From: Tahibacter amnicola
GTDB taxonomy: Bacteria; Pseudomonadota; Gammaproteobacteria; Xanthomonadales; Rhodanobacteraceae
Direction of reading: 5' to 3'
Length of the DNA stretch: 64,000 bases
Assembly: GCF_025398735.1 (NCBI RefSeq)
Contig: NZ_CP104694.1
Location: 3,993,001 to 4,057,000, forward strand
The position numbers and the translations under genes were made by a program. The notes beneath the pieces were generated by a model. It was not told the origin of the DNA. It saw only the letters and a list, made by a program, of their open reading frames with translations, and did no database searches. This document shows, piece by piece, positions 17,701 through 61,989 of the stretch (within the stretch, counting starts at the first letter, position 1; every line of letters begins with the position of its first letter).

Positions 17701-20700
17701 GTGTTCGCGCAAGTCCAGGTAGCCGCTCAGTGCCAGCTCATCCAGTGCCTGCACATGCTGCTGGACTGATCCGGTTTCGTCCTCGCGATACACCGTGCGA
17801 AGCACCTCATGGCGTTCCACGATGGTTTTCAGCGCCTCGGTGAGGGCATGCACATCCAGGCGGCCATGGATCGCGATCGGCAGTGCGATGTTGTACTGGC
17901 GACTGCCACCCGACAGCCGATCGATGAACCACAGCCGTTGCTGGGCAAAGGACAAGGGCGCCGGCGTCAGGCCGGCGCGCGCGCGAATGGCGCTGATCGA
18001 CGGCGGCGCGCTGGCGCGCCGGATATCGACCAGTTCTGCCAATGCGGCGAGATCCTGCCGTTCGAACGCGTCCTTGACGCTCAGGTCGACGGCGAACCGG
18101 CTGTTGATCTGCACCACCATGCGCGTAGCCAGCAGCGAGTGCCCGCCGAGCCGGAAGAAGTTGTCTTCCGCGCCGACCGGTTCGGAGCGTTCCAGCAGCT
18201 CCTGCCACAGCACCGCCAGCGTGCGTTCGGTTTCGGTCTCCGGCGCGCGGTACTGCGCGGCCGTCGCCGCCGACAGGTGCGGCAGCGCTGAGCGGTCGAC
18301 CTTTCCGTTGGCCGTCAGCGGCAGGCTCGCCAGCACCTCGATCACCGTCGGGCGCATGTACTCGGCCAGGGTCTGGCGCAGCGCCTGTTGCAGCGACTCC
18401 ACCAGGGCACCGCGCTCGGCGTCGGACACATTGCTCGCCACGAACGCCACGAGACGGCGATCACTGCCCACGCCCTGCACCACCGCCGCCGCATCGCTCA
18501 CGCGTGCATCGTGCTTGAGCTGCGCCTCGATCTCGCCCAGCTCGATCCGGTAGCCGCGCAGCTTGACCTGCTCGTCGCGCCGGCCCAGGTATTCCAGTTC
18601 ACCGTCCTGCGCCCAGCGCACGATGTCGCCGCTGTGATACAGCCGCGTCACCGTGCCATCGGCAAGACGGTGTTCGCGGAACCGGCTCGCCGTCAGCGAG
18701 TCGCGATTCTGGTAGCCCCGCGTCACGCCGTCGCCACCGATGCACAGCTCGCCCACCGCACCCGGCGGTACCCCTTCGTCCAGTTCGTTGAGCACGTACA
18801 ACTGCGTGTTCTGGATCGGCCGGCCGATCGCCACGGCGTGACCGCAGCGCTGCAGATCTTCCGGACGACGCACCGTGTACACCGAACACCCCACCACCGT
18901 TTCGGTCGGGCCGTATTCGTTGACGTATTCCGCCTGCGGCAGACGATCGCGCTGCCACTTCACCACCGTCGCCGTCGACAGCTGCTCACCGCCGATCACC
19001 AGGCAATGTCGCAGAGCGATTGGTCCGGCCTGCGCCGCATCACTGGCATACAGGCCGTCCAGGTGCGCCGGCGTCAGCTTGAACAGCCATTCCTGCCCGT
19101 CCTCGAACAGGTAGCGGCCCAGGCCCGCAAACAGCGCGCCCGTCTCCGACGGCAGCACCACCAGGCACTTGCCCATCAGGAGCGGCGTGAACAGCGTCGT
19201 CACCGTCGCATCGAAGCTCAGCGGCGTGCCCATCACCGCGCCGCGGTGATACGGCTGCAGGTAACCCTGCGCGTGATCCAGGTAGTTCACCACGCCCTGG
19301 TGCGGTACCAGCACGCCCTTGGGCTGGCCGGTCGATCCCGAGGTGTAGATCACATACGCCAGTTGCTGCGGATCCAGCCCGTCCACCACCGGCGCCTGCA
19401 CCGGGTATGCCGCCAGGGCCGCGGCATCGTCCAGGCACAGCGTCGACTCGCTCCAGCTCGCGCAGCGGCTGGCCAGTGCATGCACGCTCACGATGCAGCG
19501 CACGCGGCTGTCTTGGCACATGTACGACAGGCGCGCGTCCGGGTGTTCCGGTTCCAGCGGCAGGTAGGCACCACCGGCCTTCAGGATCGCCAGCACGCCG
19601 ACCACCTGCTCCAGCGAGCGGCCCACGTGCAGGCCGACCACACTGCCCGGGCCCACGCCCTGGGCGCGCAGTGCCTGTGCCGCCCGGCTCGCCCAGGCGT
19701 CCAGGTCCGCGTAGCAGAGATTCCGCTCGCCGTCGGTCACCGCCAATGCCTGCGGCGTGCGCTGCACCTGCGCGTCGAACAGCTCGTGCACGCAGCGATC
19801 GCGCGGGTAATCCTTGGACGTCTGGTTCCAGGCCTGCCAGCGCGACTGGTCCTGCGCTGTCTGCATCGGCAGCTGGTAGACCGGCGATGCCGGCGCCGAC
19901 AGCGCCGCACTCAGCAACGTCGCGTAGTGGGCCGACAGCTGCTCGATCGTCGCCGCATCGAACAGCGCCGTCGCGTACTGCCAGCTCAGCCGCAGCGCGC
20001 CCTCGTGTTCCCACGCCGTCAGCTCCAGGTCGTACTTGGTCGTCTGCGCCGCGTACGGCAGCGCGGTCACCGTCAGTTCCGGCAGCGCCAGGCGGCGCTG
20101 CGCCGTGTTCTGCAGGGTGAACAGAATCTGGAACAGCGGGCTGTGGCTCAGGCTGCGTTCCACCTGCAACCGCTCCACCACCTTGTCGAACGGTACGCCC
20201 TGATGACCGTAGGCATCCACCACGGTCGAACGCGTCGTCGCCAGCAGTTCGTCAAACCGCATCGACGGTGTCAGTTGCGTGCGCAGCGCCAGGTTGTTCA
20301 CAAAGCAACCCACCAGCGGTTCCACCTCGCGCTGCAACCGTCCCGCCACCGGCGTGCCGATCACCACGTCGCGCTGGTCGCTGTAGCGGCTCACCAGCAA
20401 GGCCAGCACCGCCTCGAGCAGCATGAACGGCGTCACGTCGCGGGCCTGGCAGAACACACGGATGCGCTCCACCAGCGCGGCCGGCAACTCGCTGCGGTAA
20501 TTGGCACCCGCTGGCACCATCTGCGCCGGACGCGGCCGGTCGCCCGGCAGCGTCGTCAGCTCCGGCGCTGCCGCCAGTTGCTGCGACCAGTAATCCAGCC
20601 CTTCGGCCAGCGTCTGCACCTGGGCCTGCTGCCACAGCGCGTAATCCGCATACTGCACCGGCAAGGCCGGCAGCGACGCCGGCTGGCCCTGGCTGTACGC

Positions 20701-23700
20701 CGCATACAATGCACCGAACTCCTCCACCAGCACGTCCATCGACCAGCCGTCCGAGGCGATGTGGTGCATCACCAGTATCAGCGCGTGCTCCTCGTCCGAT
20801 AGCGCGACCAGCGTCGCACGCAGCATGCGGTCAAGGCTCAGGTCAAACGCCCTGGCGCCTTCACTCGCCATCAGGCGTTCAAGGGCTGCACGTTGCTGCG
20901 CTACATCCTGTGACGACCAGTCCATTTCCGGAAGCGCGACGGCAGCGTCGGGATGGATCCGTTGCCACAGGCCATCCGCGTCCGCGTGATAGGTGGTGCG
21001 GAGTACCTCGTGACGCGCGAAAAGATCACGGACCGCGTGAAGCAGTGCCGCACGGTCCAGCCGGCCCGCCAGCGAAAGGCCAGTCACGATGTTGTAGCCC
21101 GCGTCGGACCGGCCATCGCCCGTCACGAACCAGATGCGCTGTTGCGCAAACGACAACGGCAGCTTTTCCGGGCGCCCGGTCGCACGAATACGCGGCGCGG
21201 CCGACATCGGCTTCGCCCCGATCAGCGCAGCCTGTTCCCGGATGGTGCGATGTTCAAAGATCTCGCGCAGCGACAGTTCGACCTCGAATTCGGCGCGAAT
21301 ACCCGAGACCAGGCGCGTGGCGAGGAGCGAATGCCCGCCCGCCTCGAAGAAGCCAACGGTCGCGCTGACCTGTTCGCGCCCGAGCAGGGAACGCCACAGC
21401 GCTTCCAGGCGGACTTCCAGCGGGGTTTCCGGCGCAACATGGGTCTGCCGGTAGAAATGCTGCGATTCGGGCGCCGGCAAGGCATTGCGATCGATCTTGC
21501 CATTGGGCGTCATCGGCAGGCGGTCGAGCACCAGGAACGCCGACGGCATCATGAAGCCGGTCAGCTCGCGTGCCAGCTGGCGCTTGCATTCGTGCAGCCA
21601 TTCCGCCTCGTCAGCGGGTTCGGTGTCGGCCACCAGGTACGCTGCCAGGAAGGCTTCGCCACTCGCCGGCTCGTGCAGCGTCACCGCCGCCTCGCGCACA
21701 CCGGCCAGCGTACACAGCTGCGCTTCGATCTCGCCCAGCTCCACGCGGTGACCGCGGATCTTCACCTGCGCGTCGCAACGGCCCACGTACAGCAGCTCGC
21801 CACTGCCCAGCCAGCGCACCAGGTCGCCGGTCCGGTACACGCGCTCACCGGAGGCCAGATAAACGAAGCGTTCCGCCGTCAGCGCATCGCGCCCCAGATA
21901 CCCGCGGCTCACGCCGGCACCGCCGATCAGCAATTCGCCCTGCACGCCCACCGGCACCGGCTGCAGCGCTTCATCGACAACGTAGAACTGCGTGTTCGCA
22001 ATCGGACGTCCGATCGTGACCGCCCGGCCACCGCCCAGCTGCGCACACGACGACCAGATCGCCGTTTCCGTCGGACCGTACAGATTGATCAACCGCGCCC
22101 GCGTGTGCCGCTCCAGCCGTTCCACCAGCGGCGCCGGACACGCCTCGCCGCCGACCATCAGCATGTCCAGCCCGGCCAGCGCTTCGCAGAAGGCCGGCAG
22201 TTCCATGTACATGCGCAGCAGCGATGGCGTGCACTGCAGATGCGTCACCGCATACCGCGTCATCAGCGCCGCGAACGAATGACCCGGCTCGGCATGACGC
22301 TGGTGGTCACCAATCACCACCGTGAAGCCCTGCGCCAACGGACACAGCAGTTCCAGGATCGAGATATCGAACGAATAGGCCGTCACCGCCAGCCATACGC
22401 CGCGCTCCAGGCCCAGGCACTCCTGCATCGCCGCACGGAAGTTGCCCAGCTGGCGGTGTTCCACCATCACGCCCTTCGGACGCCCGGTCGAGCCGGAGGT
22501 GTAGATCACATAGGCCAGGTCCGCGTCGTCGATGGCAAGATCCGGCGCATCCGGCACTTCGGCCACCGTCTCCAGCAGCACCGCTTCCACCGTCGCCGAC
22601 AGCGCCGACAGGCCCGCCCGCAACTGACCGTCAGTCACGACCCACTGCAGCGCGCTGTCCTCGACGATGTAGGCCAGGCGCGCCGCCGGATAACCCGGAT
22701 CCAGCGGCACATAGGCCGCACCGGCGCGGTGGATGCCCAGCAGGCCCACCACCATGTCCACGGTCCGCGGCAGGTACACGCCGACCAGGCTGCCCGGGCC
22801 CACGCCCCTGGCACGCAGCACCTGGGCCACGCCATCGGCGCGCGCCAGCAGGGTGCGGTAATCCAGGCGACGCTCACCGTCATCCAGCGCGATCGCAGCC
22901 GGCGTGCGCCGCGCCTGCGCGGCAATCTGCGCCGGCAGCGGCAGGTCGTCGTAGTGCCGCCCGGTCGCGTTCCACGCCGCCAATTGCCGGCGATCAACCT
23001 CCGGCAGCACATCCAGCGCCGACAGCGGGCGACGACTGTCGGCGATCACCGCCTGCGCCAACGCCAGGAAACTGCTCGCCAGCCGCTCGATCGTCGCGCG
23101 TTCGAACAGCGCCGTCGCATAACCCCACTGCAGTTCCAGGGCATCGCCCCGCGTCTGCACCGTCAGCTCCAGGTCGAAGCGGATGTTGTGCGTGCGCGAC
23201 GACAGCGGCTCCACCCGCAGGCCATCCAGCACCAGGCTTTCCTGCTCGTAGTTCTGGAATGCCAGGAACACCTGGATCAGCGGGTGATGGCTCAGGTGAC
23301 GTTCCACCTGCAACGTTTCCACCAGCAACTCGAACGGCACGTCCTGGTGGCGGAACACCGCCGCCGCCTGCGCCTTGTGCGCTTCCAGCAGCGTCGCGAA
23401 ATCGGTCTCTCCCGCCAGCACGTGGCGGAACACCAGTGTGTTGGCGAAGAAGCCCACCAGCGACGCGGTACCCGGCTGGTTGCGTCCGGCAGCCGGCACA
23501 CCGATCACCACGTCGTGACTGCCTGCGTACTTGCCCAGCAGCACCGCAAACAGCGCCTTGACCACCAGGAACAGCGTGCAACCGTGACGCTGCGCCAAGG
23601 CATTCAGGCCAGCCAGCAGCTCCCCCTCCAGGCGTTGCCGGTGCACGTGTCCCACATAGTCCGGCTGCGCCGGACGCGGCTTGTCCAGCGGCAGCCGATG

Positions 23701-48394: not shown

Positions 48395-48838
48395 CTATTC
48401 CAGTGGATTTCCCATCAATCGCCGCGGACCGGGGCCGATCTTCCCCAGGGTGTCGGCCGGATTGCTCAACCGGCATCGCTTGAGCGAAAGACAGCCGCAG
48501 CCGATGCACCCGGTCAACTCGTCGCGCAGGCGGGTCAACTCGGTGATGCGCGCATCGAGCGCCTGGTGCCATACGGCAGAAAGTCGCGCCCAGTCGGCGC
48601 GGGTCGGCGTCCGTGACTGGGGCAGGCGCGACAGAGCCTCCCCGATGGCCTCCAGGGAGATTCCTACACGTTGTGCAACACGAATTACCGCAATCCGGCG
48701 CAGGACGTCGCGCGAATAGCGTCGCTGATTGCCCGCACTGCGCGCGCTTCTGATCAGGCCCTTGCTTTCATAGAAGTGCAGGGCCGACACCGATACCCCG
48801 CTGCGGCGTGCGACCTCGCCTACACCCAGGTCCGTCAT
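48395..48838 (-). CDS. soxR: Redox-sensing MerR-family regulator SoxR, 147 aa
   Basis: MerR-type winged helix at the N-terminus ([19 protein letters not shown], then [17 protein letters not shown]), a dimerisation helix, and the SoxR iron-sulfur cluster motif [12 protein letters not shown] with Cys111, Cys114, Cys116 and Cys122 (C-x2-C-x-C-x5-C). Known SoxR proteins bind a [2Fe-2S] cluster and switch on target promoters when redox-cycling compounds such as phenazines or quinones oxidise it. In non-enteric bacteria the targets are often efflux pumps and monooxygenases. Here the gene is divergent from an MFS efflux gene with a SoxR box between them, so that pump is the likely target. Length and motifs are those of the family. 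Confidence 0.95.
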
Positions 48839-48841
48839 TGG

Positions 48842-48873
48842 CTTGACCTCAAGTTAAGTTGAGATTCTATGCT
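48842..48873 (+). promoter_or_regulatory. SoxR box with overlapping MFS promoter
   Basis: CTTGACCTCAAGTTAAGTTG at 48842-48861 continues into GAG and matches the known SoxR-box pattern (TTGACCTCAACTTAACTTGAG type). It contains the near-palindrome CTCAAGTTAAGTTGAG. A -35 TTGACC (48843-48848) and a -10-like TATGCT (48868-48873) are 19 bp apart, the long spacer typical of MerR-family-activated promoters. It faces the MFS gene and lies five bases from the soxR start codon, so it can also autoregulate soxR. Confidence 0.85.
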
Positions 48874-48973
48874 CGGCCGCCTCGTACTGGAGGTCAAGCA
48901 TGTCACCCGACACCCCACGCATCCGCCTCGCATTCCCCCGCTTCCCCGATGCGCATGCCACGGAGGCCTGCCG

Positions 48974-50344
48974 ATGAGCGCGGTGATCACGCTGAAGGCA
49001 CCGGGCCTGTTCAGCCCCGAGTACCGCGCGATCACCACGGGCATGGTGACGCTGGTATCCCTTATTGCCTTCGAATCGCTGGCTGTCGCCACGATCATGC
49101 CGGAGCTGGCCCGTGCGCTGGACGGCATGCGCTACTACGCGCTCGGGTTCAGCAGCGTGTTCGCCGCCAGCGTGATCGGCATGATTCTGGCCGGCCAATG
49201 GAGCGACCGGCGCGGTGCGGCTCTCCCGCTGGCCACCGGGATTGCCGCGTTCGCTGCAGGCCTTCTCATCGCCGGCCTCGCTGCCGGGATGGGAATGTTC
49301 CTGCTCGGCCGCGCGGTCCAGGGGCTGGGCTCCGGACTCGTCTCCGTCGCGCTGTACGTCGTGATCGGACAGATCTACCCGCTGCCGCTGCGTCCCCGCG
49401 TCTTCGCGGCACTGTCTGCCGCGTGGGTAATTCCCTCGCTCGTTGGTCCCGGCATCAGCGCGCTGGTGCTGCACTACGCCGGATGGCGCTGGGTGTTTCT
49501 CGGCGTGGCGCTGCTGGCGTTGCCCGCGAGCGGGTTGCTGCGTCCGGCCTTGGCCATCGCCCCGGATCCGGCCCGGCGGCCGCCGGCCAAGTGCGGCACC
49601 CGACCGCTCGTCCGGGCAGTCGGCGCCGCGCTCTGCATTGCTCTACTGCCCTATGCGAGCCAGCAGGCGGTCGCGCTCGCGCCGCTTGCCGTGGCCGCGG
49701 TCCTGATTGGCATCGGCACTTTCGCCCACCAGCTCCTGCCCGCTGGCACCTTTAGCGTGCAAGCGGGCGTGCCGGCAGTGATCGCGCTGCGCGCCATGGC
49801 CGCGGGCGCCTACTTCGGCACCGAGGTTTTCGTTCCCTTGCTACTGAGTCAGCAGCGTGGGCTGCAACCCCTGTGGGTCGGCATCGCCGTGACGGTCGGT
49901 GCGGTCAGCTATTCCGCCGGATCCTGGTTCCAGGGCGTAGTCGCCAGCGGTGCCGGCGACCGCACAGTCCGACTGCGCGTCGGCATGGGGCTGATCGCAG
50001 GCGGTATCGGACTGGTGGCCACAGCGGTGTCGCCCGATGTTCCGCTCGGCATCGGCATTGCCGGCTGGTCCGCGGCGGGATTCGGCATGGGCATGGTCTA
50101 CCCCATCCTGGCGAGCGCCATCCTGGAACTGTCGCCCGAGAACGAACGCGGCACGAACAGTTCCGGTCTGCAGCTCGCCAATGCCCTGGCCATTGCCGGC
50201 ATGATTGCCATTGGCGGCGTGCTTTACACGGCCGTCGTTGCACACTCGGCGCGCCTCGCGTTCATGTCCGTGTTCGCTGTGTGCGCCATGTTGCCGGTCT
50301 TCGGTGCCGCACTGGCACATCGAAGCGCGATCCGCCGGAACTGA
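48974..50344 (+). CDS. MFS efflux transporter, 456 aa, SoxR-controlled
   Basis: Polytopic membrane protein with about 12-14 hydrophobic segments. The MFS motif A loop reads GMILAGQWSDRRG between segments 2 and 3, and the motif C-like segment GWRWVFLGVALLALP follows VGPGISALVLHYA, as in drug:H+ antiporters (DHA families). The start ATG 48974 has GGAGG 8 bases upstream; an in-frame start near 48869 overlaps the promoter and is rejected. It should export small toxic or redox-active compounds across the inner membrane. The SoxR box upstream suggests induction by redox-active drugs, which could include a self-made compound. The substrate is unknown. It converges on the thioredoxin-like gene with only 29 bases between stops. 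Confidence 0.92.
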   Translation: MSAVITLKAPGLFSPEYRAITTGMVTLVSLIAFESLAVATIMPELARALDGMRYYALGFSSVFAASVIGMILAGQWSDRRGAALPLATGIAAFAAGLLIAGLAAGMGMFLLGRAVQGLGSGLVSVALYVVIGQIYPLPLRPRVFAALSAAWVIPSLVGPGISALVLHYAGWRWVFLGVALLALPASGLLRPALAIAPDPARRPPAKCGTRPLVRAVGAALCIALLPYASQQAVALAPLAVAAVLIGIGTFAHQLLPAGTFSVQAGVPAVIALRAMAAGAYFGTEVFVPLLLSQQRGLQPLWVGIAVTVGAVSYSAGSWFQGVVASGAGDRTVRLRVGMGLIAGGIGLVATAVSPDVPLGIGIAGWSAAGFGMGMVYPILASAILELSPENERGTNSSGLQLANALAIAGMIAIGGVLYTAVVAHSARLAFMSVFAVCAMLPVFGAALAHRSAIRRN

Positions 50345-50373: not shown

Positions 50374-50940
50374 TTAACCGGCCATGGCCACCGGGGCGGT
50401 TTCGACGTCCTCCTGCTGAACCTGCCCGACAAAGGAAAGCCAGTTCTCATCGCCGATAAAGTCGCTGGCAAGCACGGTCTGGCGGTGATCGGCAAAGAGA
50501 TAGAACGGCGCGGCATTGCGTGGATTCAGCGCGCGGCGCGCTGAGGCACTGACCAGCACGACGTGATCCAGCAGCGGCGTTCCGTGGAGAAACGCCGTCA
50601 TCCGCTTGCGCGAATTTGCGCTCACGATCCACAGCGCCACGCCAGCGTTCCGGATGGCCGGATACAGTTGCGTCAGCTGCCGCACCCGCATGCGGCAGTC
50701 ATCGCACTCGGGCGACAGGAACAGCAGCACGGCGGACTGGCCCGCCAGCGCCGAGGAACTGACCGCACGCCCATTCGACAACCATCGGCCTGAGAACGAT
50801 GGCAGCGATGTGCCTTCAGGCAACCGGGTAGGTGAACGCAGGTACTCCTGCGCTGCTATCACCGCGGCGAGGCGCAGTACCAGGAACACCAGGAACGCGA
50901 CGACAACGGTCAGGATGGCAACGACGAATTCGATGACCAA
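50374..50940 (-). CDS. Membrane-anchored thioredoxin-fold protein (TlpA/MauD-like), 188 aa
   Basis: One N-terminal membrane anchor (about residues 3-29, FVVAILTVVVAFLVFLVLRL) puts the rest in the periplasm. A thioredoxin-like domain follows with FSGRWLSNG, VLLFLSPECDDC and the redox pair Cys79-x-x-Cys82, then a strand LWIVSAN. This layout matches TlpA/ResA/MauD proteins that reduce or form disulfides in exported proteins. It is the last gene of the ATP-grasp operon, 72 bases after the MauE-like gene. MauE and MauD work together in methylamine dehydrogenase maturation; here no mau structural genes exist, so the pair more likely handles the two cysteines of the 61-residue peptide encoded first in the operon. 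That link is inference. Confidence 0.85.
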   Translation of the reverse strand: MVIEFVVAILTVVVAFLVFLVLRLAAVIAAQEYLRSPTRLPEGTSLPSFSGRWLSNGRAVSSSALAGQSAVLLFLSPECDDCRMRVRQLTQLYPAIRNAGVALWIVSANSRKRMTAFLHGTPLLDHVVLVSASARRALNPRNAAPFYLFADHRQTVLASDFIGDENWLSFVGQVQQEDVETAPVAMAG

Positions 50941-51012
50941 GGCTCACTCCCCGGGAAGACGACCACCACGCACGCACGCGAGGTTCCAGGACGCATAACG
51001 CATGCCCCTGCC

Positions 51013-51537
51013 CTACACCTTGATCCGCAGCACCGCCACGATGTCCTGCAGCGCGGTGGAAATCAGAAAGAAGATGACAGCGACGCCGGCCAGCATCACG
51101 CGCAGGAACACATCGTCTGCAGGAAGGGACGGCGTTCCGAGCGCAAACCCCGCTGCGCCGATGAACAGCAGGTTCCGCACCAGGTCATAGGCCGAGATTC
51201 GGTGGCTCGATCCGCCAAAGCAACTGCACAGGACCGTCCGGTCCTGTGCCAGCGACACCGCAATCACCGTGGTGAAGACAATGAACAAGGCCAGCGTGGC
51301 GATGAGGCCGTAGCGCGCGAACGGTCCCCCCAGCACCACCAGGGCGGCACTACCCCACTCGGCGACGATGATCGCGGCACCGACCGGTACGACGTACGGT
51401 CGCAACCCGGGAAACGACTTGGCCAAGTCCCGGCGGAACTGCCCGAAATGAAATGATTTCCCCCACGCAGCCACAAGCAGCGCCACGAGCAGCCAAAGGC
51501 GCGCAATCTCTGCGACAGGCCCCATCAGGTCGTTCAT
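51013..51537 (-). CDS. MauE/DoxX-like integral membrane protein, 174 aa
   Basis: Four hydrophobic segments (about residues 10-25, 48-70, 77-96 and 123-165) fit the MauE family of small four-helix membrane proteins. Early motif WGKSFHFGQFRRDL and the cysteine pair Cys104-x-Cys106 in VLCSCFGG are typical MauE landmarks and suggest a quinone- or thiol-linked redox role comparable to DsbB/VKOR proteins. The start ATG 51537 overlaps the TGA of the protease gene (ATGA), so the two are translationally coupled; a longer frame back to 51633 would run inside the protease gene and is rejected. It probably recharges the TlpA/MauD-like protein encoded next. Confidence 0.87.
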   Translation of the reverse strand: MNDLMGPVAEIARLWLLVALLVAAWGKSFHFGQFRRDLAKSFPGLRPYVVPVGAAIIVAEWGSAALVVLGGPFARYGLIATLALFIVFTTVIAVSLAQDRTVLCSCFGGSSHRISAYDLVRNLLFIGAAGFALGTPSLPADDVFLRVMLAGVAVIFFLISTALQDIVAVLRIKV

Positions 51538-52415
51538 GCAACCCCCACCGGTTCCCAGCATCCGTTCGGGCTGTCGACCGACCGACGCCGCTGCAGACCA
51601 CCGGTGCTGGTCATGAACAGTGCGTCGCACCAATCACTCTCCATCGATGTGCGAGACCCGCCGCCGACACGTGTGCGGATTTCGCACGCGATCTCCCAGG
51701 AAAGGGATTCCACATCCGCCTGTCGCGCCATCGGAAGCCCCAGGCGGGCAAGGTCATCCCCCGTCAATGCGTAGGTGTGCGAATGGAAGCCGAACAACAA
51801 GGTGTCGGTAATCGCCGAGCGCTGTTCGGGCGAGCGATCCGGAAGCGCCAACGCCAGCAGCTCGTTGCTGATGTCCTGTACCTCGCGCGTGCACCGGTAC
51901 AGTGATGTCAGCGTGGTCGGAAAGATGCTGTCGCACAGCTGGGGCAACGCGCGTTGTCGGGCATCGTGCTTTTCCATGCCGAACCAGTCGTGGCTCATCT
52001 GCCAGAACAGGCGGATGTCCTGGGAGGAGAGCGCCGAAGGACCGCTGCCGGCGTTTTCCGCGTTCAGATGCGGATCGGTCGGCGAGAACACGGCCAGTGG
52101 CCCGGCAACGATTTCGTCGGCGGACAACGCCATCACGGTTCCCGCGGATTCGCAAAAATGCGGAACCACGAACGTCACGTGAGTGGCGAATTCCCGAAAC
52201 AGCAGGGCAATGCGTCGCGCCACGTTCACGGAACCGCCACGGCAGTTCACCACGACGCAAAGGCGCTCAACCGGCCCGATGCTCCGCAACGATTCGTATG
52301 CCGCGGGCAGCAGATCGATGTCCAGGCTGGTAGCCGCCAGCACGAGCACGCGCGTCTGCACGAGCGATTCAAGGCGCGCGATCGCGGTAAAGCCCGTCTT
52401 GGTGCTAGCGTCCAT
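51534..52415 (-). CDS. SDH-type (ClpP/crotonase-fold) serine protease, 293 aa
   Basis: The sequence follows the serine-dehydrogenase-proteinase / SppA-like fold. A strand VLVLAATSLD is followed by VVVNCRGGSVNVARRIA (oxyanion-hole and helix region), then VVPHFCESAGTVMALSADEIV, where Ser90 in ESAGT is the expected nucleophile, and FSPTDPHLN, where Asp114 or its neighbours complete the usual SPxDP loop. There is no signal peptide or membrane segment, so it should act in the cytoplasm. Its gene overlaps the ATP-grasp gene by 11 bases and the MauE-like gene by 4 bases. This context suggests that it cuts the modified precursor peptide, for example leader removal. Known graspetide clusters often lack a dedicated protease of this fold, so the pairing is notable. 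Confidence 0.88.
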   Translation of the reverse strand: MDASTKTGFTAIARLESLVQTRVLVLAATSLDIDLLPAAYESLRSIGPVERLCVVVNCRGGSVNVARRIALLFREFATHVTFVVPHFCESAGTVMALSADEIVAGPLAVFSPTDPHLNAENAGSGPSALSSQDIRLFWQMSHDWFGMEKHDARQRALPQLCDSIFPTTLTSLYRCTREVQDISNELLALALPDRSPEQRSAITDTLLFGFHSHTYALTGDDLARLGLPMARQADVESLSWEIACEIRTRVGGGSRTSMESDWCDALFMTSTGGLQRRRSVDSPNGCWEPVGVA

Positions 52416-53412
52416 CCGCGGCCCCCTGGATCAGGCGCTCCGCCACCGCATCTGTGAGTTTCAGTTCCGGGACCAGCTGCTCGACAAAGAGGAATTGGCC
52501 GCCGGGATTGTTCTCCAGGAAGACATAGTCGCCCTGCGGTGTGACGATGAGGTCCAGCGCGCCGTAGGAAAGACCATAGCTGTGGACGAACGCGATGCAG
52601 CGCCGCTCCACATCCTCCGGCAGCGTGAACGCCTCGTAGGGAATGGCAACGGAGAATTCGCGAAAGTCGGTAACGGTGCGCGGGTCGCTCTGCGAGAGAA
52701 TCTTCGCGGAATAGGCCCGGTCGCCAATCACCGTCACCCGCACTTCAAACTGCTTGGGTATGTGCGTCTGGAAAAAGCACGGCACTTCGCCGATTCCATC
52801 GATCATCGCGACGTACTCGTCAGTGATCCGCGTCGTGGCAATGCCGACGGCGACGCACTCATCCGGTGAAACCTTGTCGGCGCCCAGATACGGTGAGGCC
52901 AGCGTCTTGAAGATGATGTCTCCGCCCTCGGCGTGGCGAAACTGCAAAACCGGCTCCGGTCGGTTGGCGATCAGTGATCGAGGGACCTCAAATCCCATTG
53001 CCGCGGCACGCAGCAGCTGCTCGCCCTTCCATTGCGCAGCGCGGGCGGCAATCGGATGGCTCATCCAGAAGCATGACAGGGAGTGCAGCAGACTCAATAG
53101 CACATGCTCGGTTTCTTCCGAGGCGTAGGCTTTTTCCTGCGCGCCGAGATCTTCACTGTCGAAGGCGAACTCGGCAGGTTTTCGCGTCCAGACCGCGCCA
53201 ATATCGCTCAACCACAGCGTGTCACCGGAAGGCTGGTGCAGCAGGCTGCCCGTCCAGGCGCCGTCGGCAAAGCGAAGATCCAGTGAGAACCGGGCCGGAA
53301 ATTCGTCCAGGTTCAAGCGGAACGGTCGATGCCCCTTCGCGAGAATCCGGTCGGCGACCAGATCAGCGTGCACGTCTGCGCGTTCCGTAATGATCAATAT
53401 GCGTTTTGTCAT
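52405..53412 (-). CDS. ATP-grasp RiPP maturase (MvdC/MvdD/PsnB-like), 335 aa
   Basis: Starts with the pre-ATP-grasp fold (MTKRILIITERADVHADLVA) and LWLSDIGAVWTRKP, a segment typical of peptide-modifying MvdD/PsnB ligases. The ATP-grasp part has WKGEQLLRAAAMGFEVPRSL (about 128-146) and ends with DYVFLENNPGGQFLFVEQL, where Glu300 and Asn302 are the expected Mg-ATP ligands. Such enzymes phosphorylate Asp/Glu side chains of a precursor and close them on Ser/Thr or Lys as omega-ester or omega-amide rings (graspetides). The likely substrate is the 61-residue peptide encoded 247 bases upstream. Length is normal for the family. There is no strong ribosome binding site before ATG 53412. Alternative: a different ATP-grasp peptide ligase; the RiPP context makes this less likely. 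Confidence 0.88.
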   Translation of the reverse strand: MTKRILIITERADVHADLVADRILAKGHRPFRLNLDEFPARFSLDLRFADGAWTGSLLHQPSGDTLWLSDIGAVWTRKPAEFAFDSEDLGAQEKAYASEETEHVLLSLLHSLSCFWMSHPIAARAAQWKGEQLLRAAAMGFEVPRSLIANRPEPVLQFRHAEGGDIIFKTLASPYLGADKVSPDECVAVGIATTRITDEYVAMIDGIGEVPCFFQTHIPKQFEVRVTVIGDRAYSAKILSQSDPRTVTDFREFSVAIPYEAFTLPEDVERRCIAFVHSYGLSYGALDLIVTPQGDYVFLENNPGGQFLFVEQLVPELKLTDAVAERLIQGAADGR

Positions 53413-53614
53413 TGACAGCCTTCGGTGGGCGACACAGCGAAGTGCAGACGACCTTGAAGGGCGACCTGCCCAGGATCACGGTGGTGATAAGCCGCAGACG
53501 CTGCGGTCCATTCCGGACACGCCGGGGTAGCACACGTTTCCCGGCCGGATGGAGTGCGTGCAGCAGCGACGCAGACACCGCCGCAGCCTTCTCCAACGCA
53601 GTGGCCGCACGAAT

Positions 53615-53640
53615 GCAAGAGGCCCCGAAGGACCTCTCGC
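53615..53640 (-). terminator. UUCG stem-loop between precursor and ATP-grasp genes (attenuator or mRNA stabiliser)
   Basis: On the minus strand GCGAGAGGTCC-TTCG-GGGCCTCTTGC forms an 11-bp stem (two G-U pairs) closed by a UUCG tetraloop, starting 19 bases after the precursor stop. No U-run follows. Such hairpins after a precursor gene commonly give high peptide expression and lower expression of the enzyme genes. It may stop transcription partly or protect the 3' end. Confidence 0.7.
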
Positions 53641-53659
53641 ACTCAATCACGCCGGGTGA

Positions 53660-53845
53660 TCAGCAGTAGACGCCACGGTCCTTGCCCGTCACGCCCTGAT
53701 AGCGCAAGTTGCCCTGCCAGATGTAGTCCGTGCAGCCGGCAACGGAAACGCCATCGCGGCCTTTCCACTGGGCATCGGCGGACTCTTTCTTCGCCACTTC
53801 TTTGGCAGCCAACTTGAACGCAAACAGCTTCTGCTTGGTTTCCAT
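53660..53845 (-). CDS. Putative RiPP precursor peptide, 61 aa
   Basis: First gene of the operon, with a strong AGGAGA ribosome binding site 7 bases before ATG 53845. Residues 1-21 are a charged, helix-forming leader (METKQKLFAFKLAAKEVAKK). From about residue 24 the sequence changes to a Gly-, aromatic- and Asp-rich core with Cys38 and a C-terminal Cys61. Three dipeptides (R30-D31, T39-D40, K55-D56) put possible acceptor (Thr39, Lys55) and donor (Asp31, Asp40, Asp56) residues at intervals, which suits omega-ester/amide crosslinks made by the ATP-grasp ligase. The two cysteines suit the MauE/MauD-like redox pair. The core does not match microviridin (TxKxPSD), plesiocin or thuringinin repeats that I know. 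The precursor role is inferred from size, position and neighbours. Confidence 0.72.
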   Translation of the reverse strand: METKQKLFAFKLAAKEVAKKESADAQWKGRDGVSVAGCTDYIWQGNLRYQGVTGKDRGVYC

Positions 53846-54182
53846 GTAAATCTCCTCACAATTGATGGAGTTTCATTTTTCCAGCGCACCAGGGATGCGC
53901 TGCGGTCTTACCGTCCGGAACACGAGCAGGGATGGGAGCGTGCCCGCACGATAATTTCTCCGACCGGGCTGGCCCGTTCCGGTCGATCGCAGGCCGATAT
54001 CGCCTTCCGCGCTATGCGACGGGAAGCGATCAGCCTGGGAACGGGGTAATCAACGCGGCTGCCGCCGCTGCGTTGACAGCGAAAATGACGAAAATGCGAA
54101 ATTTCCTGTGAAGCATTCTGCGTAAGCCAAATTGGCCAGACGAAGCGTCAACCATCTTGTTAACAAATGCGTTTTCCCCGCC
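53846..54182. promoter_or_regulatory. Divergent promoter region between RiPP-like operon and ABC transporter
   Basis: 337 bp between two divergent starts, so promoters for both units should be here. On the plus strand TTGACA at 54073-54078 is a perfect -35, but no good -10 follows at 16-18 bp. The stretch 54070-54180 is clearly AT-rich. On the minus strand I see only the ribosome binding site of the peptide gene and an AT-rich leader (53850-53880). No gene is visible. Confidence 0.5.
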
Positions 54183-55940
54183 ATGTCCGAATCCCAGTCA
54201 GCCGCACCCATTGGTAGTCTCCGCACACTGTGGCCGTTTCTGCGCAAGCACCCCGGCCTTCTGGCCGGCTGGCTGATCGCCCTTGCCTGCGCCAACCTGG
54301 CCACACTAGGTATGCCGGTCACGTTTCGCGTCATGATCGACCAGGGCTTCGCCCAGGGCGGCGGCGAGGCCATCAACCAGACATTCCTGATGGTCCTGGC
54401 CGTCACCGGGACGCTGGCCTTGACCAGCTCGGCGCACTACTACTTCATCTCCATGCTGGGCGAGCGTGTCGTGGCAGACCTGCGCGAACGCCTCTACGCG
54501 CACCTGATCGGAATGGACGCCGCGTTCCACGACCGCAACCGCAGCGGCGACCTGGTATCGCGACTGATTGCCGACTCCGAGCTGCTGCGTGTGGTCATCG
54601 GATTGACCATGTCCAGTGCCTTGCGCGGCTCGTTGACGGTGCTGGGAAGCTTCGTGATGCTCTTCGTGACGAGCCCGCGCCTCGCTGCCTATGCCCTGCT
54701 GGGCATCCCGCTGACGGTCATCCCCATCGTCCTGAGCGGAGAGCGACTGGCGCAGGTGTCGCGTTCCACCCAGGACCGCATCGCCGATACGAACACACTC
54801 GCGGCCGAAACCCTGGGGGCTGTGCGGACGGTCCAGGCGCATTCGCGCGAGCCGTTTGAACGTGGCCGCTTTGTCGAGGCGCTCACGACGGCCATCTTCT
54901 CGGCCCGGCATCGCATCCGTCTGCAAGCAGTCGTCATGTTCCTGGGGATCAGCCTGATCTTCAGTGCGTTCACTATCGTGCTGTGGGTGGGCGCACACGA
55001 TGTCGTGGCGGGACGCATGACCGGCGGAACGCTTGGCCAGTTCCTCTTCTACGCCGTCATCGGCGGCAGCTCTGTCGGATCGCTCGCCGAAGTCTGGAAT
55101 GAAGTGCAGCGCGCGGCCGGCGGCATGGGACGCATCAGCGAACTGCTGGCCGAATCGCCCGCCATCAGAGCGCCGGCACACCCCACGGCGCTGCCCGCCC
55201 CTGTGCGCGGCGCACTCAATTTCGACAAGGTCACCTTCCATTATCCGCAGAACCCGGAACAGGCCGCCCTGTCTGATTTCACCCTGCACGTCCGTCCCGG
55301 CGAGACGGTCGCATTGGTCGGCCCTTCTGGCGCCGGCAAGAGCACGCTGTTCTCGCTGCTGCTGCGCTTCCACGACCCGACCTGCGGCACCGTCAGCATC
55401 GACGGCGTCGACATCCGCGCGCTCGATCCCCGGGCGCTGCGCGAGGCTATCGGCCTGGTTCCGCAGCAACCGACGATCTTCGCCGCCAGTGCGAAAGTGA
55501 ACGTCCTCTACGGCCGGCTCGATGCCACCGACGCCGACGTGCACCAGGCGCTCGGTGCCGCGCACGCGGTCGAGTTTATCGACGCGTTGCCGAAGGGCCT
55601 GGATACGGAACTGGGTGAACGCGGCGCGCGACTGTCCGGCGGGCAGCAGCAGCGTATCGCGATCGCGCGCGCGTTGCTCAAGAATGCGCCCATCCTCTTG
55701 CTCGACGAAGCCACCAGCGCGCTCGATGCGCAGAGCGAACACGCCGTGCAGCAGGCGCTGGAGACGCTGATGCGCGGCCGGACGACACTGGTCATCGCTC
55801 ATCGGCTCGCCACGGTCCTGAAGGCCGACCGCATCGTCGTCATGGATCACGGGCGCATCGTAGCGGAAGGCACGCACGCGCAGCTGCTGGCCGAGGGCGG
55901 ACTCTACGCGGAACTGGCCAGACTGCAGTTCCTGGATTGA
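54183..55940 (+). CDS. Exporter-type ABC transporter, fused permease-ATPase (MsbA-like), 585 aa
   Basis: N-terminal transmembrane domain with six hydrophobic segments (about residues 20-310), then an ATPase domain: Walker A GPSGAGKST (about 380-388), signature LSGGQQQR (about 485), Walker B ILLLDEATSALD and the H-loop in VIAHRLAT. Half-transporter length, so it works as a dimer in the inner membrane. There is no C39 peptidase domain, so it would not cut leaders itself, which fits with the separate protease gene in the divergent operon. I chose ATG 54183; an in-frame TTG at 54132 is possible since neither has a good ribosome binding site. It may export the RiPP-like product; a general lipid or drug exporter role is the alternative, because similar MsbA-related proteins occur alone in many proteobacteria. 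Confidence 0.93.
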   Translation: MSESQSAAPIGSLRTLWPFLRKHPGLLAGWLIALACANLATLGMPVTFRVMIDQGFAQGGGEAINQTFLMVLAVTGTLALTSSAHYYFISMLGERVVADLRERLYAHLIGMDAAFHDRNRSGDLVSRLIADSELLRVVIGLTMSSALRGSLTVLGSFVMLFVTSPRLAAYALLGIPLTVIPIVLSGERLAQVSRSTQDRIADTNTLAAETLGAVRTVQAHSREPFERGRFVEALTTAIFSARHRIRLQAVVMFLGISLIFSAFTIVLWVGAHDVVAGRMTGGTLGQFLFYAVIGGSSVGSLAEVWNEVQRAAGGMGRISELLAESPAIRAPAHPTALPAPVRGALNFDKVTFHYPQNPEQAALSDFTLHVRPGETVALVGPSGAGKSTLFSLLLRFHDPTCGTVSIDGVDIRALDPRALREAIGLVPQQPTIFAASAKVNVLYGRLDATDADVHQALGAAHAVEFIDALPKGLDTELGERGARLSGGQQQRIAIARALLKNAPILLLDEATSALDAQSEHAVQQALETLMRGRTTLVIAHRLATVLKADRIVVMDHGRIVAEGTHAQLLAEGGLYAELARLQFLD

Positions 55941-59673: not shown

Positions 59674-61989
59674 GTGCGCGCCACGAACCCAGCCACGCAA
59701 ACGGGGTATGTCGTGTTGCTATCGCAGTGGATCTGTCGGCTCGCCTTGCCCGTGTCCGGGATTGCCGTCCTCCTTTCATCCGGCGGCGCGCACGCCCAGG
59801 TGTCGTTGACCACAATGGGGGTGCCGTATACGCAGAGTTTCGACACCCTGCCCGCCAGCGGCTCGGCCACCTGGACGAACAACTCGACCGTCCCCGGCTG
59901 GTTTCATGCCCGGACGGGCACCGGCACCACGATCGTGGCGAACGACGGTTCCAGCAATGCCGGCAACCTCTATAGCTACGGCACTGGCACGGCCACCGAT
60001 CGCGCGCTGGGGGCACTCGGATCGGGCAACGCGGCCATCGGCAATCTGTTCTGGGGTGTGCGCCTGCAGAACAATACCGGCGCCACGATCACGGCGCTGG
60101 ACGTGTCCTTCGTCGGCGAGCAATGGCGCAACAGCGCTGCCGCCGCCCAGACTGTTGCCTTCTCCTATCTGGTCGGCAGCCCGACTGTCACCGGCAGCCT
60201 GGCCGAGTTCCAGTCCGCGGGAACGGCCGTCGCCGCGCTGGACTTCCCGTCCCCGATCACCGGCGGCGCCGCCGGTGCGCTCAACGGCAATCTCGCGGCC
60301 AACCAGGTCACCGTCACCTCGACCATTTCGGGGCTGAGCATCCCCAACGGGACCGAGGTGATGCTGCGCTGGTCGGATCCGGACCACACCGGCGCGGATC
60401 ACGGCCTGTCGATCGACAGTTTCGCGGTCACGCCGCAGGGCGTGACCCTGCCGAACCTCACGATCAACGACGTGAGCCTCAACGAAGGTAACACGGGCAC
60501 GACGTCCTTCACCTTCACCGTTTCCCTGTCGGCGCCGGCCGGTCCGGGTGGCGTCACCTTCGATATCGGAACGGCTGACGATTCGGCCGTCGCGCCGGGC
60601 GACTACGCCACCAACTCGCTGACATCCCAGACCATCCCCTCGGGCAGTTCGACCTACTCCTTCACCGTCAACGTCAATGGCGACCCGGATGTCGAGACGA
60701 ACGAAGCCTTCTTCGTCAACGTCAGCACTGTCACCGGCGCGAACGTCACCGACGGCCAGGGCGTGGGTACCGTCCAGAACGACGACGTGCCCGCGAGCGC
60801 AGATCTCGCCGTCACGGTGGTGGATTCCCCCGACCCGGTACTGGCGGGCAACAACCTGACGTACACGGTCACCGTGACCAACAATGGTCCCGACGCGGCC
60901 TCGACGGTCAGTCTCTCCGATACGTTGCCCGGCACCCTGACGTTTGTCTCGTTCACCGCACCCGGTGGCTGGTCCTGCACGACGCCGGCCGTCGGCGCCG
61001 GTGGCACCGTTTCCTGCTCGATCGCATCGCTGGGCGTCGGCAGCGCGGTGTTCACGCTGGTCGGCAATGTGCCCGCCGACACGCCGGCCGGCACCATCTT
61101 TTCGAATACGGCAACGGCCAGCTCGACGACCAGTGATCCGTCCACTGGCAATGAGAGCGGCACCGCCACGACCACTACGGCAGTCGGCGTCGATCTCGCC
61201 GTAACCGTGGCCGACGCGCCCGACCCGGTGGTCGCCGGCGCCACGGTCACCTATACGGTCACCGTCGCCAACGCAGGCCCAAGCACAGCGGCGAATGTCT
61301 CCTTGTCAGATACCTTGCCAGCCGGCACGACCTTCGTGTCACTGACAGCCCCCGGCGGCTGGTCCTGCACGACGCCGGCCGTCGGCGCCACCGGCACCAT
61401 CAGCTGCTCGATCGCGGCATTGCCGGCCGGTAGTGCACCGTTCACACTGGCGGCGAACGTCGACGCCGGCGTTGCTGCGGGCACGGTGCTTTCCAACACG
61501 GCCACGGGTATCACCTCGACGACCGATACCAACCCGGGCAACGAGTCGGGAACGGCAACGACGACCGTGACCACCTCGGCCGACCTCAGCGTCACCAACA
61601 GCCCGTCGACCAGCAACGCGATCAACGGGCAGCCGATCACCTACACCATCACGGTGACCAACGCCGGCACCAGCAATGCGGCCAATGTCACTTTGTCCAA
61701 TCCGATACCCAGCGGCACGACCTTCACCTCACTCAGTTCGCCGGGTGGCTGGAGCTGCACGACGCCGGCTGCCGGCGCCACTGGCACCGTTTCCTGCACC
61801 CTGGCATCGCTGGCGCCGGGCATGGCGGTCTTCTCGCTCACGGTCACCGTCGACAACGGCTTGCCCCCCTCGACCATCGTGGACGTCGCTACCGTGACGT
61901 CGACCACCACCGACCCGAATACCGGCAACGAGTCAGCCACCGCCATGACCAGTACGCCGGTCTCGCTACAGTCGTTTGAAGTTGACTGA
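59674..61989 (+). CDS. Secreted Calx-beta and triple DUF11 repeat protein, 771 aa
   Basis: Signal peptide (about 18-42, ending GGAHA-Q). Residues 43-260 form a beta-sandwich-like region of the kind found at the N-terminus of large secreted nucleases and adhesins (YTQSFDTLPASG, FWGVRLQNNTG). Residues about 263-370 are a Calx-beta domain (LNEGNTGTTSFTFTVSLS, DYATNS, NDD). Three DUF11 repeats of about 125-130 residues follow (ADLAVTVVDSPDPVLAGNN, then YTVTVTNNGPDAA and GGWSCTTPAVG). The protein stops directly after the third repeat without the IPTL-CTERM or LPXTG-like sorting signal that often ends such proteins. The GTG 59674 start has GGGAGG very close; a GTG at 59713 would fit equally well. 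Probably a surface-associated or extracellular protein without enzymatic function. Confidence 0.82.
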   Translation: MRATNPATQTGYVVLLSQWICRLALPVSGIAVLLSSGGAHAQVSLTTMGVPYTQSFDTLPASGSATWTNNSTVPGWFHARTGTGTTIVANDGSSNAGNLYSYGTGTATDRALGALGSGNAAIGNLFWGVRLQNNTGATITALDVSFVGEQWRNSAAAAQTVAFSYLVGSPTVTGSLAEFQSAGTAVAALDFPSPITGGAAGALNGNLAANQVTVTSTISGLSIPNGTEVMLRWSDPDHTGADHGLSIDSFAVTPQGVTLPNLTINDVSLNEGNTGTTSFTFTVSLSAPAGPGGVTFDIGTADDSAVAPGDYATNSLTSQTIPSGSSTYSFTVNVNGDPDVETNEAFFVNVSTVTGANVTDGQGVGTVQNDDVPASADLAVTVVDSPDPVLAGNNLTYTVTVTNNGPDAASTVSLSDTLPGTLTFVSFTAPGGWSCTTPAVGAGGTVSCSIASLGVGSAVFTLVGNVPADTPAGTIFSNTATASSTTSDPSTGNESGTATTTTAVGVDLAVTVADAPDPVVAGATVTYTVTVANAGPSTAANVSLSDTLPAGTTFVSLTAPGGWSCTTPAVGATGTISCSIAALPAGSAPFTLAANVDAGVAAGTVLSNTATGITSTTDTNPGNESGTATTTVTTSADLSVTNSPSTSNAINGQPITYTITVTNAGTSNAANVTLSNPIPSGTTFTSLSSPGGWSCTTPAAGATGTVSCTLASLAPGMAVFSLTVTVDNGLPPSTIVDVATVTSTTTDPNTGNESATAMTSTPVSLQSFEVD
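60796..61960 (+). repeat. Three tandem DUF11-encoding repeats (~390 bp each)
   Basis: Units begin near 60799, 61189 and 61576. They share phrases such as GGCTGGTCCTGCACGACGCC at 60966 and 61359 and a diverged form (GGCTGGAGCTGCACGACGCC) near 61746. The repetition is imperfect, so it is an old domain repeat rather than a recent duplication. Confidence 0.8.

Follow-up and report, generated by a model that had tools for sequence, protein, structure and literature searches.

What would be made by a gene cluster that places a graspetide-type ligase, a protease and a thiol redox pair around a peptide of 61 residues? The question is raised by positions 50,374 to 55,940 of a 64,000-nucleotide stretch of Tahibacter amnicola DNA (contig NZ_CP104694.1), the whole of which is called the window here. 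A first-pass annotation of the window had read this part as a graspetide-like cluster with its own ClpP-fold protease and a MauE/MauD-type redox pair. The cluster proves genuine and represents a conserved branch among graspetide-like clusters, and its most distinctive features are the protease and the two-cysteine frame of the precursor. Taken as a whole, we read it, with somewhat more confidence than doubt, as a unit for the biosynthesis, processing and export of a ribosomally synthesized and post-translationally modified peptide (RiPP), the predicted product being a stem-loop graspetide clamped by an ester and a disulfide.

Reading of the open reading frames (ORFs) gives a five-gene unit on the minus strand: the precursor peptide (61 aa, 53660..53845, ATG start preceded by GAGGAG), a graspetide-type ATP-grasp ligase (335 aa, 52405..53412), an SDH-type serine protease of predicted ClpP/SppA fold (293 aa, 51534..52415), a MauE-family membrane protein (174 aa, 51013..51537) and a TlpA/MauD-like thioredoxin with a hydrophobic N-terminus (50374..50940, TTG start). 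The gene for an ATP-binding cassette (ABC) exporter, a half-transporter with membrane and ATPase parts according to Pfam, is divergent on the plus strand (54183..55940). All six genes lie where the first-pass annotation had placed them, and the close coupling that it described is present in the sequence: the protease and ligase genes overlap by 11 bases, and the mauE start overlaps the protease stop as ATGA.

A ligase scan of genome contigs returned eight loci. Seven of them, with ligases 49-61% identical, carry precursor, ligase, SDH, MauE and TlpA genes in that order. These loci come from Lysobacter or Lysobacteraceae, Shewanella, Pseudoduganella, Kangiella and Phenylobacterium, genera which we take to span the gamma-, beta- and alphaproteobacteria. 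Since the identical gene order recurs in related loci, the gene set is not a chance assembly. The eighth locus (L008, ligase 32% identical) has an ABC gene and none of the others. A congener found through its SDH gene (G003) carries the set split on two contigs, with a ligase fragment after the precursor. A profile built from 15 precursors had matches in 24 of the 294 genomes in the family of P. violaceinigra (G624), of which G624 and G627 were already known, and precursor-profile searching also revealed second loci in both Lysobacteraceae metagenome-assembled genomes. With L005 and L009 excluded as duplicates of L096 and L097, the collection comprises 33 loci (the window, 7 from the ligase scan, G003, 22 and the 2 second loci). 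Precursor, ligase, SDH, MauE and TlpA occur together in 33/33. An ABC gene is present in 31/33, so the exporter is part of the unit despite its divergent orientation in the window; it is split into two ORFs in L080. L002 and L003 have none within about 6-8 kb, and the second loci of the same genomes have one. The first-pass annotation had made its proposal hinge on conservation of the peptide beside this ligase family, and such conservation was found in the 33 loci and in nine later ones.

One clade (96/91) unites the ligases of the 33 loci to the exclusion of eight outgroup ligases, which have long branches; a 70% identity threshold splits the clade into 14 clusters. Pairwise identities of the ligases correlate with those of the SDH proteins (r 0.98). 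The outgroup consisted of six genomes from a 398-genome phylum sample (own genome excluded) and L008. No SDH, MauE, TlpA or precursor match was found around its eight ligases in seven loci, three of which have a short flank on one side (L108 has 709 and L008 has 2358 bases after the ligase, and L111 has 1882 before it). The six phylum-sample members are not close kin, with E values of 8.8e-61 at best against the profile.

The individual proteins were then compared with known families. The ligase matches PF21068, the MvdD pre-ATP-grasp family (E 5.6e-15, 55.9 bits, cut-off 27), and reaches 227.6 bits against TIGR04187, below the cut-off of 350. Its scores against the NCBIfam models MvdC, MvdD and GRASP_SAV_5884 are all far below the cut-offs (157.5/425, 189.4/475 and 227.6/350). 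The best solved relative is CdnC (7mgv, E 1.9e-60), and AMdnB and further ATP-grasp ligases were also matched; the microviridin and chryseoviridin ligases (MvdC, MvdD, MdnC, CdnC) are thus sequence relatives. The protease matches PF01972 (SDH_protease, 51.3 bits, cut-off 31.3). It scores 62.7 against the equivalog NF047768, under the cut-off of 250, and therefore appears to belong to a divergent branch of SDH-type proteases. An AlphaFold2 model (pLDDT 90.6) gave SppA (4.2e-05) and ClpP (6.7e-05) as the best Foldseek matches, with modest TM-scores; no solved structure matched the SDH profile by sequence (E up to 0.1). C88, S90, T93, D114 and H213 are invariant in 33/33 loci, Ser90, D114 and H213 being candidate catalytic residues with Ser90 as the putative nucleophile. 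MauE matches PF07291 (78 bits, cut-off 27) and has the motif C104-x-C106-F-G, found as CxCFG in 33/33 loci. For its profile, no solved structure was matched by sequence (E up to 1), and the best hit of a fold search had an E value of 0.21. The TlpA-like protein matches PF00578 (36.6 bits, cut-off 26), and its C79-x-x-C82 motif, P145 and hydrophobic N-terminus are each kept in 33/33 loci. Two components named by the first-pass annotation, the graspetide-like ligase and the dedicated ClpP-fold protease, are therefore supported: the former by PF21068, the homology to CdnC and its conservation beside the peptide, the latter by PF01972, the predicted SppA/ClpP fold and its presence in 33/33 loci.

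The precursors combine a conserved frame with a variable loop. After trimming, all 74 precursors from the 33 loci contain exactly two Cys and end in the core AG(G)-C-[S/T]-x(11-25)-[D/E]-x-G-x-x-C(A)-stop, seen in the window as A36-G37-C38-T39...D56-x-G58-x-x-C61-stop. On the minus strand, A36-G37-C38 (53732..53740; AG(G)C in 74/74) would contain the leader cleavage site, between G37 and C38, and the first Cys of a proposed disulfide. T39 (53729..53731; Thr in 41 and Ser in 33 precursors) is the proposed hydroxyl partner of an omega-ester, and D56 (53678..53680; Asp in 73, Glu in 1) its proposed carboxylate partner. C61 (53663..53665) would be the C-terminal Cys of the disulfide; a terminal Cys is found in 71/74 precursors and Cys-Ala in 3/74. 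The leader carries LFAFKLA, of which LFAFK (residues 7-11, 53813..53827) is the proposed ligase recognition motif. F-A-F is present in 73/74 precursors; the exception, one copy in L074, has FAFK in frame upstream but no ATG, GTG or TTG before it, and may be dead. Between Ser/Thr and Asp lies a loop of 11-25 residues that lacks Cys and occurs in 58 distinct versions among the 74 precursors. Mean pairwise identity is 0.24 for the 58 unique loops, versus 0.70 for the 14 residues before the loop and 0.62 for the last six residues. Loops vary within single loci too (mean identity 0.32 over 71 pairs). At L074 (9441-11659), ten tandem precursor copies with differing loops in one frame stand ahead of one ligase.

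No Pfam or NCBIfam family matched the precursor above cut-off. DUF6422 (E 0.1) and other weak matches (best E 0.0045) were regarded as chance. The published graspetide leader motif Phhx(1,2)h is not matched either, P-h-FAF occurring in 0/74 precursors, whose leader motif has no conserved Pro. The published motif, found in about half of the precursors surveyed by Makarova (PMC8939145), is not obligatory for graspetides. The leader LFAFKL recalls, by resemblance alone, the microviridin leader PFFARFL.

We propose the following pathway, whose steps and order are predictions. The ligase would bind the LFAFK leader and join the Thr/Ser after the first Cys to the Asp/Glu near the C-terminus, forming one omega-ester with loss of 18 Da and closing the hypervariable loop. 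Leader removal would fall to the SDH protease, whose most likely cutting point is the invariant Gly-Cys junction of AG|C; it would take the role played elsewhere by C39 peptidases, and the ABC protein would export the peptide. The redox state of the Cys pair would be set by TlpA and MauE. Their most likely effect would be a disulfide that links the N- and C-terminal Cys and, on the N side, lies one residue beyond the ester. The product would be a doubly clamped stem-loop of 19-33 residues.

Several points weigh against this pathway. The preference of SDH for AG|C is itself predicted, as is the chemistry of ester, cleavage and disulfide. The fit of the precursors to the pattern is partly built in, because in most loci they were found by precursor profiles, which favour fitting copies; the gene neighbourhood is not favoured by this procedure. 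The Asp/Glu31 preceding AG is also conserved (69/74 precursors, absent in 5/74) and may be the carboxylate partner in place of Asp/Glu56. In MauE, the mean number of Lys and Arg is 0 at the N-terminus, 1.73, 0.06, 2.36 and 0.52 in the successive loops and 1.64 at the C-terminus. The third loop, with 2.36, carries CxC, and the positive-inside rule, a crude test, would place it in the cytoplasm; such a position is more in keeping with electron donation by MauE than with oxidation in the periplasm.

The remaining points come from further precursor-profile searches, which gave nine additional loci in seven genomes. Precursor and ligase are present in 9/9, the ABC gene in 5/9 and SDH in 8/9, two of which run off the contig end (L140 and L143). 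MauE and TlpA are found together in 4/9 loci; L139, L141 and L144 lack the pair next to SDH or ligase, and L140 and L143 could not be judged. Precursors of the loci without MauE/TlpA keep both Cys. L139 (genome G1582, 7486-9808) is reduced to precursor, ligase and SDH, with no MauE, TlpA or ABC match in 16 kb, which suggests that Dsb enzymes of general function may be enough. In L141 SDH is missing as well, and the same genome (G1696) has a second, full locus, L142. The second locus in the genome of L144 (G1708) is L143, cut by the contig end. The redox pair is therefore typical of the locus and not obligatory. Of the MauE/MauD-type pair that had been annotated, the type is upheld by PF07291, the membrane-anchored CxxC thioredoxin and the presence in 33/33 loci; a strict association is not, since three of the nine later loci lack it.

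The core pattern fits 20 of the 22 precursor copies in the later loci (21 ORFs and one more). One L141 copy has Arg in place of Gly and keeps both Cys, Thr and Asp. An apparently decayed copy in L138 (5797-5985) has lost the FAF motif, the Thr, the Asp motif and the terminal Cys. In L146 (genome G1840, about 7686-8094), both copies keep the core and have the leader motif out of frame; they may be dead genes or reflect a sequencing error. L145 and L146 are close to L004 and thus not independent tests.

Is SDH the leader peptidase? No C39 peptidase domain is among the 17 Pfam families listed for the ABC protein of the window, which in this differs from PCAT/NHLM exporters. The ABC gene reads 577-608 aa in 29/31 loci (248 and 534 aa in the other two), so these exporters appear too short to accommodate a C39 domain, and another leader peptidase would be needed. 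The window exporter also has a 58% identical paralogue elsewhere in the genome. A rather unlikely alternative retains the graspetide unit and gives SDH another task. If the product inhibits proteases, SDH may confer self-resistance or be a homologue of its target; it may also serve in quality control, acting on unmodified precursor. All graspetides characterised by then were protease inhibitors according to Makarova 2022 (PMC8939145), and Carter 2026 allows nearby proteases either a part in peptide maturation or a function in resistance (PMC13097080). Moreover, every loop (74/74) contains at least one Arg, which a trypsin-like inhibitor could use. Such roles would leave unfilled the need for a leader peptidase created by the exporter, and they fit less well with the retention of SDH even in the reduced locus L139, where the Glu preceding the Ser is altered and the Ser itself is retained.

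A second alternative concerns the redox step. If the MauE/TlpA pair were reductive or acted as an isomerase, the Cys would be kept free, for a metal or another bond, and the product would lack the disulfide. The putative cytoplasmic position of the MauE CxC is what an electron donor would show, and ResA and CcmG, which have a reductant role, are among the solved structures related to the TlpA profile. The same set of relatives includes DsbF, a named disulfide-forming protein. In addition, MauE has been speculated to act in disulfide formation in methylamine dehydrogenase (PMC7794033). On balance a reductive or isomerase role is unlikely, and oxidation to the disulfide remains our preferred assignment.

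Improbable to the same degree is that the ligase makes a bond other than the T39-D56 ester, be it between Asp31/Glu31 and T39, a thioester of Cys38, or more than one ring. A conserved pair of Ser/Thr/Lys and Asp/Glu is present in the core of 74/74 precursors and of 21/22 copies in the later loci, the exception being the decayed copy. The conserved Ser/Thr is the sole Ser/Thr/Lys in 16/74 cores, and in one further core the conserved Asp is the sole Asp/Glu. The remaining cores carry more Asp/Glu and often Ser/Thr/Lys in the loop, so that extra rings are conceivable: additional Asp/Glu are found in 73/74 loops and Ser/Thr/Lys in 58/74, with Lys in 8/74. These loop residues have no fixed places. 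As for Asp/Glu31, its conservation would suit such a bond, but it precedes the proposed cleavage site and is missing in 5/74 precursors, compared with 0/74 for Asp/Glu56. The single T39-D56 ester is kept in the pathway. Very improbable is that the small protein is no RiPP precursor at all and that it regulates a ligase with another substrate or assists such a ligase as its chaperone subunit. Its reading as a RiPP precursor is a prediction, for which the exporter, the conserved motifs of leader and C-terminus, and the tandem paralogues (as many as 10, with hypervariable loops) all argue.

How does the predicted product compare with known systems? One likeness is with fuscimiditide and other stem-loop graspetides, in which an ATP-grasp ligase, with Thr first and Asp second, builds nested clamps around a loop; fuscimiditide has an inner Thr7-Asp18 ester with a 10-aa loop and an outer Thr3-Asp22 ester (PMC12291112). 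The present family differs in having one conserved ester pair, a predicted Cys-Cys disulfide as outer clamp, and a unit that includes SDH, MauE and TlpA. Among graspetides, class I microviridins also have a leader protease of their own; this enzyme, NosP, is a homologue of AplP and acts as both endo- and aminopeptidase, unlike the SDH protein proposed here (PMC13039773). A Ser-Glu side-chain ester within a knottin occurs in the stryphnines, which are sponge peptides for which no grasp enzyme was found in the sponge transcriptome (PMC13418204). With the methylamine dehydrogenase MauE/MauD pair, the unit shares the MauE family and the membrane-anchored CxxC thioredoxin. The decRiPPter candidates of Streptomyces resemble it in placing mauE, and in one family also mauD, beside a Cys-bearing precursor, and ATP-grasp enzymes occur in other candidates. 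Their precursors have at least eight Cys, against exactly two here, and the paper reports that their ATP-grasp enzymes lack direct similarity to the ones that make microviridin and other omega-ester peptides (PMC7794033).

The first-pass annotation had also suggested that the combination is an undescribed graspetide class. In the literature searched (graspetides, RiPPs with SDH, MauE or TlpA, microviridin and disulfide, and the host genera; survey group tables lay outside this coverage), no description of the gene set was found. The suggestion holds in this respect and less so for the redox genes, since MauE/MauD genes have been seen before beside candidate RiPP clusters (PMC7794033). The main text of Makarova (PMC8939145) does not mention SDH, ClpP, MauE, thioredoxin or disulfide, and SDH, ClpP and SppA are likewise not mentioned in a review on RiPP leader proteases (PMC10885120). 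According to Carter 2026, more than half of group 9 contains a serine proteinase, and groups 26, 30, 32 and 40 have proteases or peptidase transporters in their vicinity (PMC13097080). Because the protease families are unnamed in the section on these groups, the SDH-bearing family may already be within one of them. The motif of Lee's group 9 belongs to a leader cluster that Makarova ties to an actinobacterial branch (PMC8939145); this is a weak argument against membership in Carter's group 9, because group 8 of the same leader cluster also has a Legionella member (PMC9576775). Gra-8 of Lysobacter capsici was considered as a family member and rejected, having four conserved acceptors and up to three dehydrations (PMC9576775).

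We therefore put forward only tentatively, as a possibility on which doubt prevails, that this is a new graspetide type. It would combine an omega-ester with a disulfide of the first and last Cys one residue outside, formed after an SDH cut at AG|C, and would amount to a natural scaffold for the display of loops, as many as ten of them per locus sharing a single ligase. If true, it would give a graspetide type with ester and disulfide on one scaffold, a candidate for the leader-removing enzyme in systems whose exporter lacks a peptidase domain, and a small set of genes with which to study how a MauE/TlpA pair acts on a substrate with two Cys. Loop engineering could also draw on the conserved frame and its natural set of 58 loops.

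The distribution of the unit is patchy. In a class sample of 369 genomes, nine pass 1e-20 for SDH, and by score the SDH type is present in the own genome only; the eight other matches (E 2e-34 to 6e-21) were set aside as ordinary homologues, by score alone. Counting the own genome, 2/8 genomes of the genus are positive, and 2/233 of the family of the window for the ligase. Precursor profiles, with the centre genome included, matched 1/199, 7/247 and 3/146 genomes in three other families. The initial round scored part of the candidates in many genomes, and misses are possible. Among plasmid records, 15 have SDH relatives (25.7-35.6% identical) and 80 have ligase relatives, all below 60% identity, the 15 listed of these 80 being at 31.0-34.5%. 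No match was found in viral contigs.

A hairpin of 15-16 bp with a UUCG loop is predicted 3' of the peptide stop (53610..53645, minus strand), and the 106-nt stretch containing it has a z of -2.60. Hairpins of at least 10 pairs within 110 nt follow 33/74 precursors, versus 20/400 random, mostly coding stretches from the same loci. An attenuator or an RNA-stabilising element is possible. No promoter pattern was found, and terminators are no commoner than chance.

Elsewhere in the window, a MerR-type regulator gene divergent from a major facilitator superfamily transporter gene (48395-50344) adjoins the 3' end of the cluster. Four very large ORFs of 2660, 4310, 2210 and 3217 aa occupy 6764-43954 on the minus strand. 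Two of the four were scanned and contain condensation, AMP-binding and PP-binding domains, one of them also polyketide synthase (PKS) domains; the region, which lies some 6 kb away from the RiPP unit, is a probable non-ribosomal peptide synthetase/PKS cluster. Within it, ORFs of equal length are offset by 3207 bases (15181-17595 and 18388-20802, and likewise 15833-16807 and 19040-20014), and these lengths and the offset alone suggest a repeated module in the 4310-aa ORF. Finally, the plus strand encodes a 771-aa protein with three DUF11 stretches at 59674-61989.

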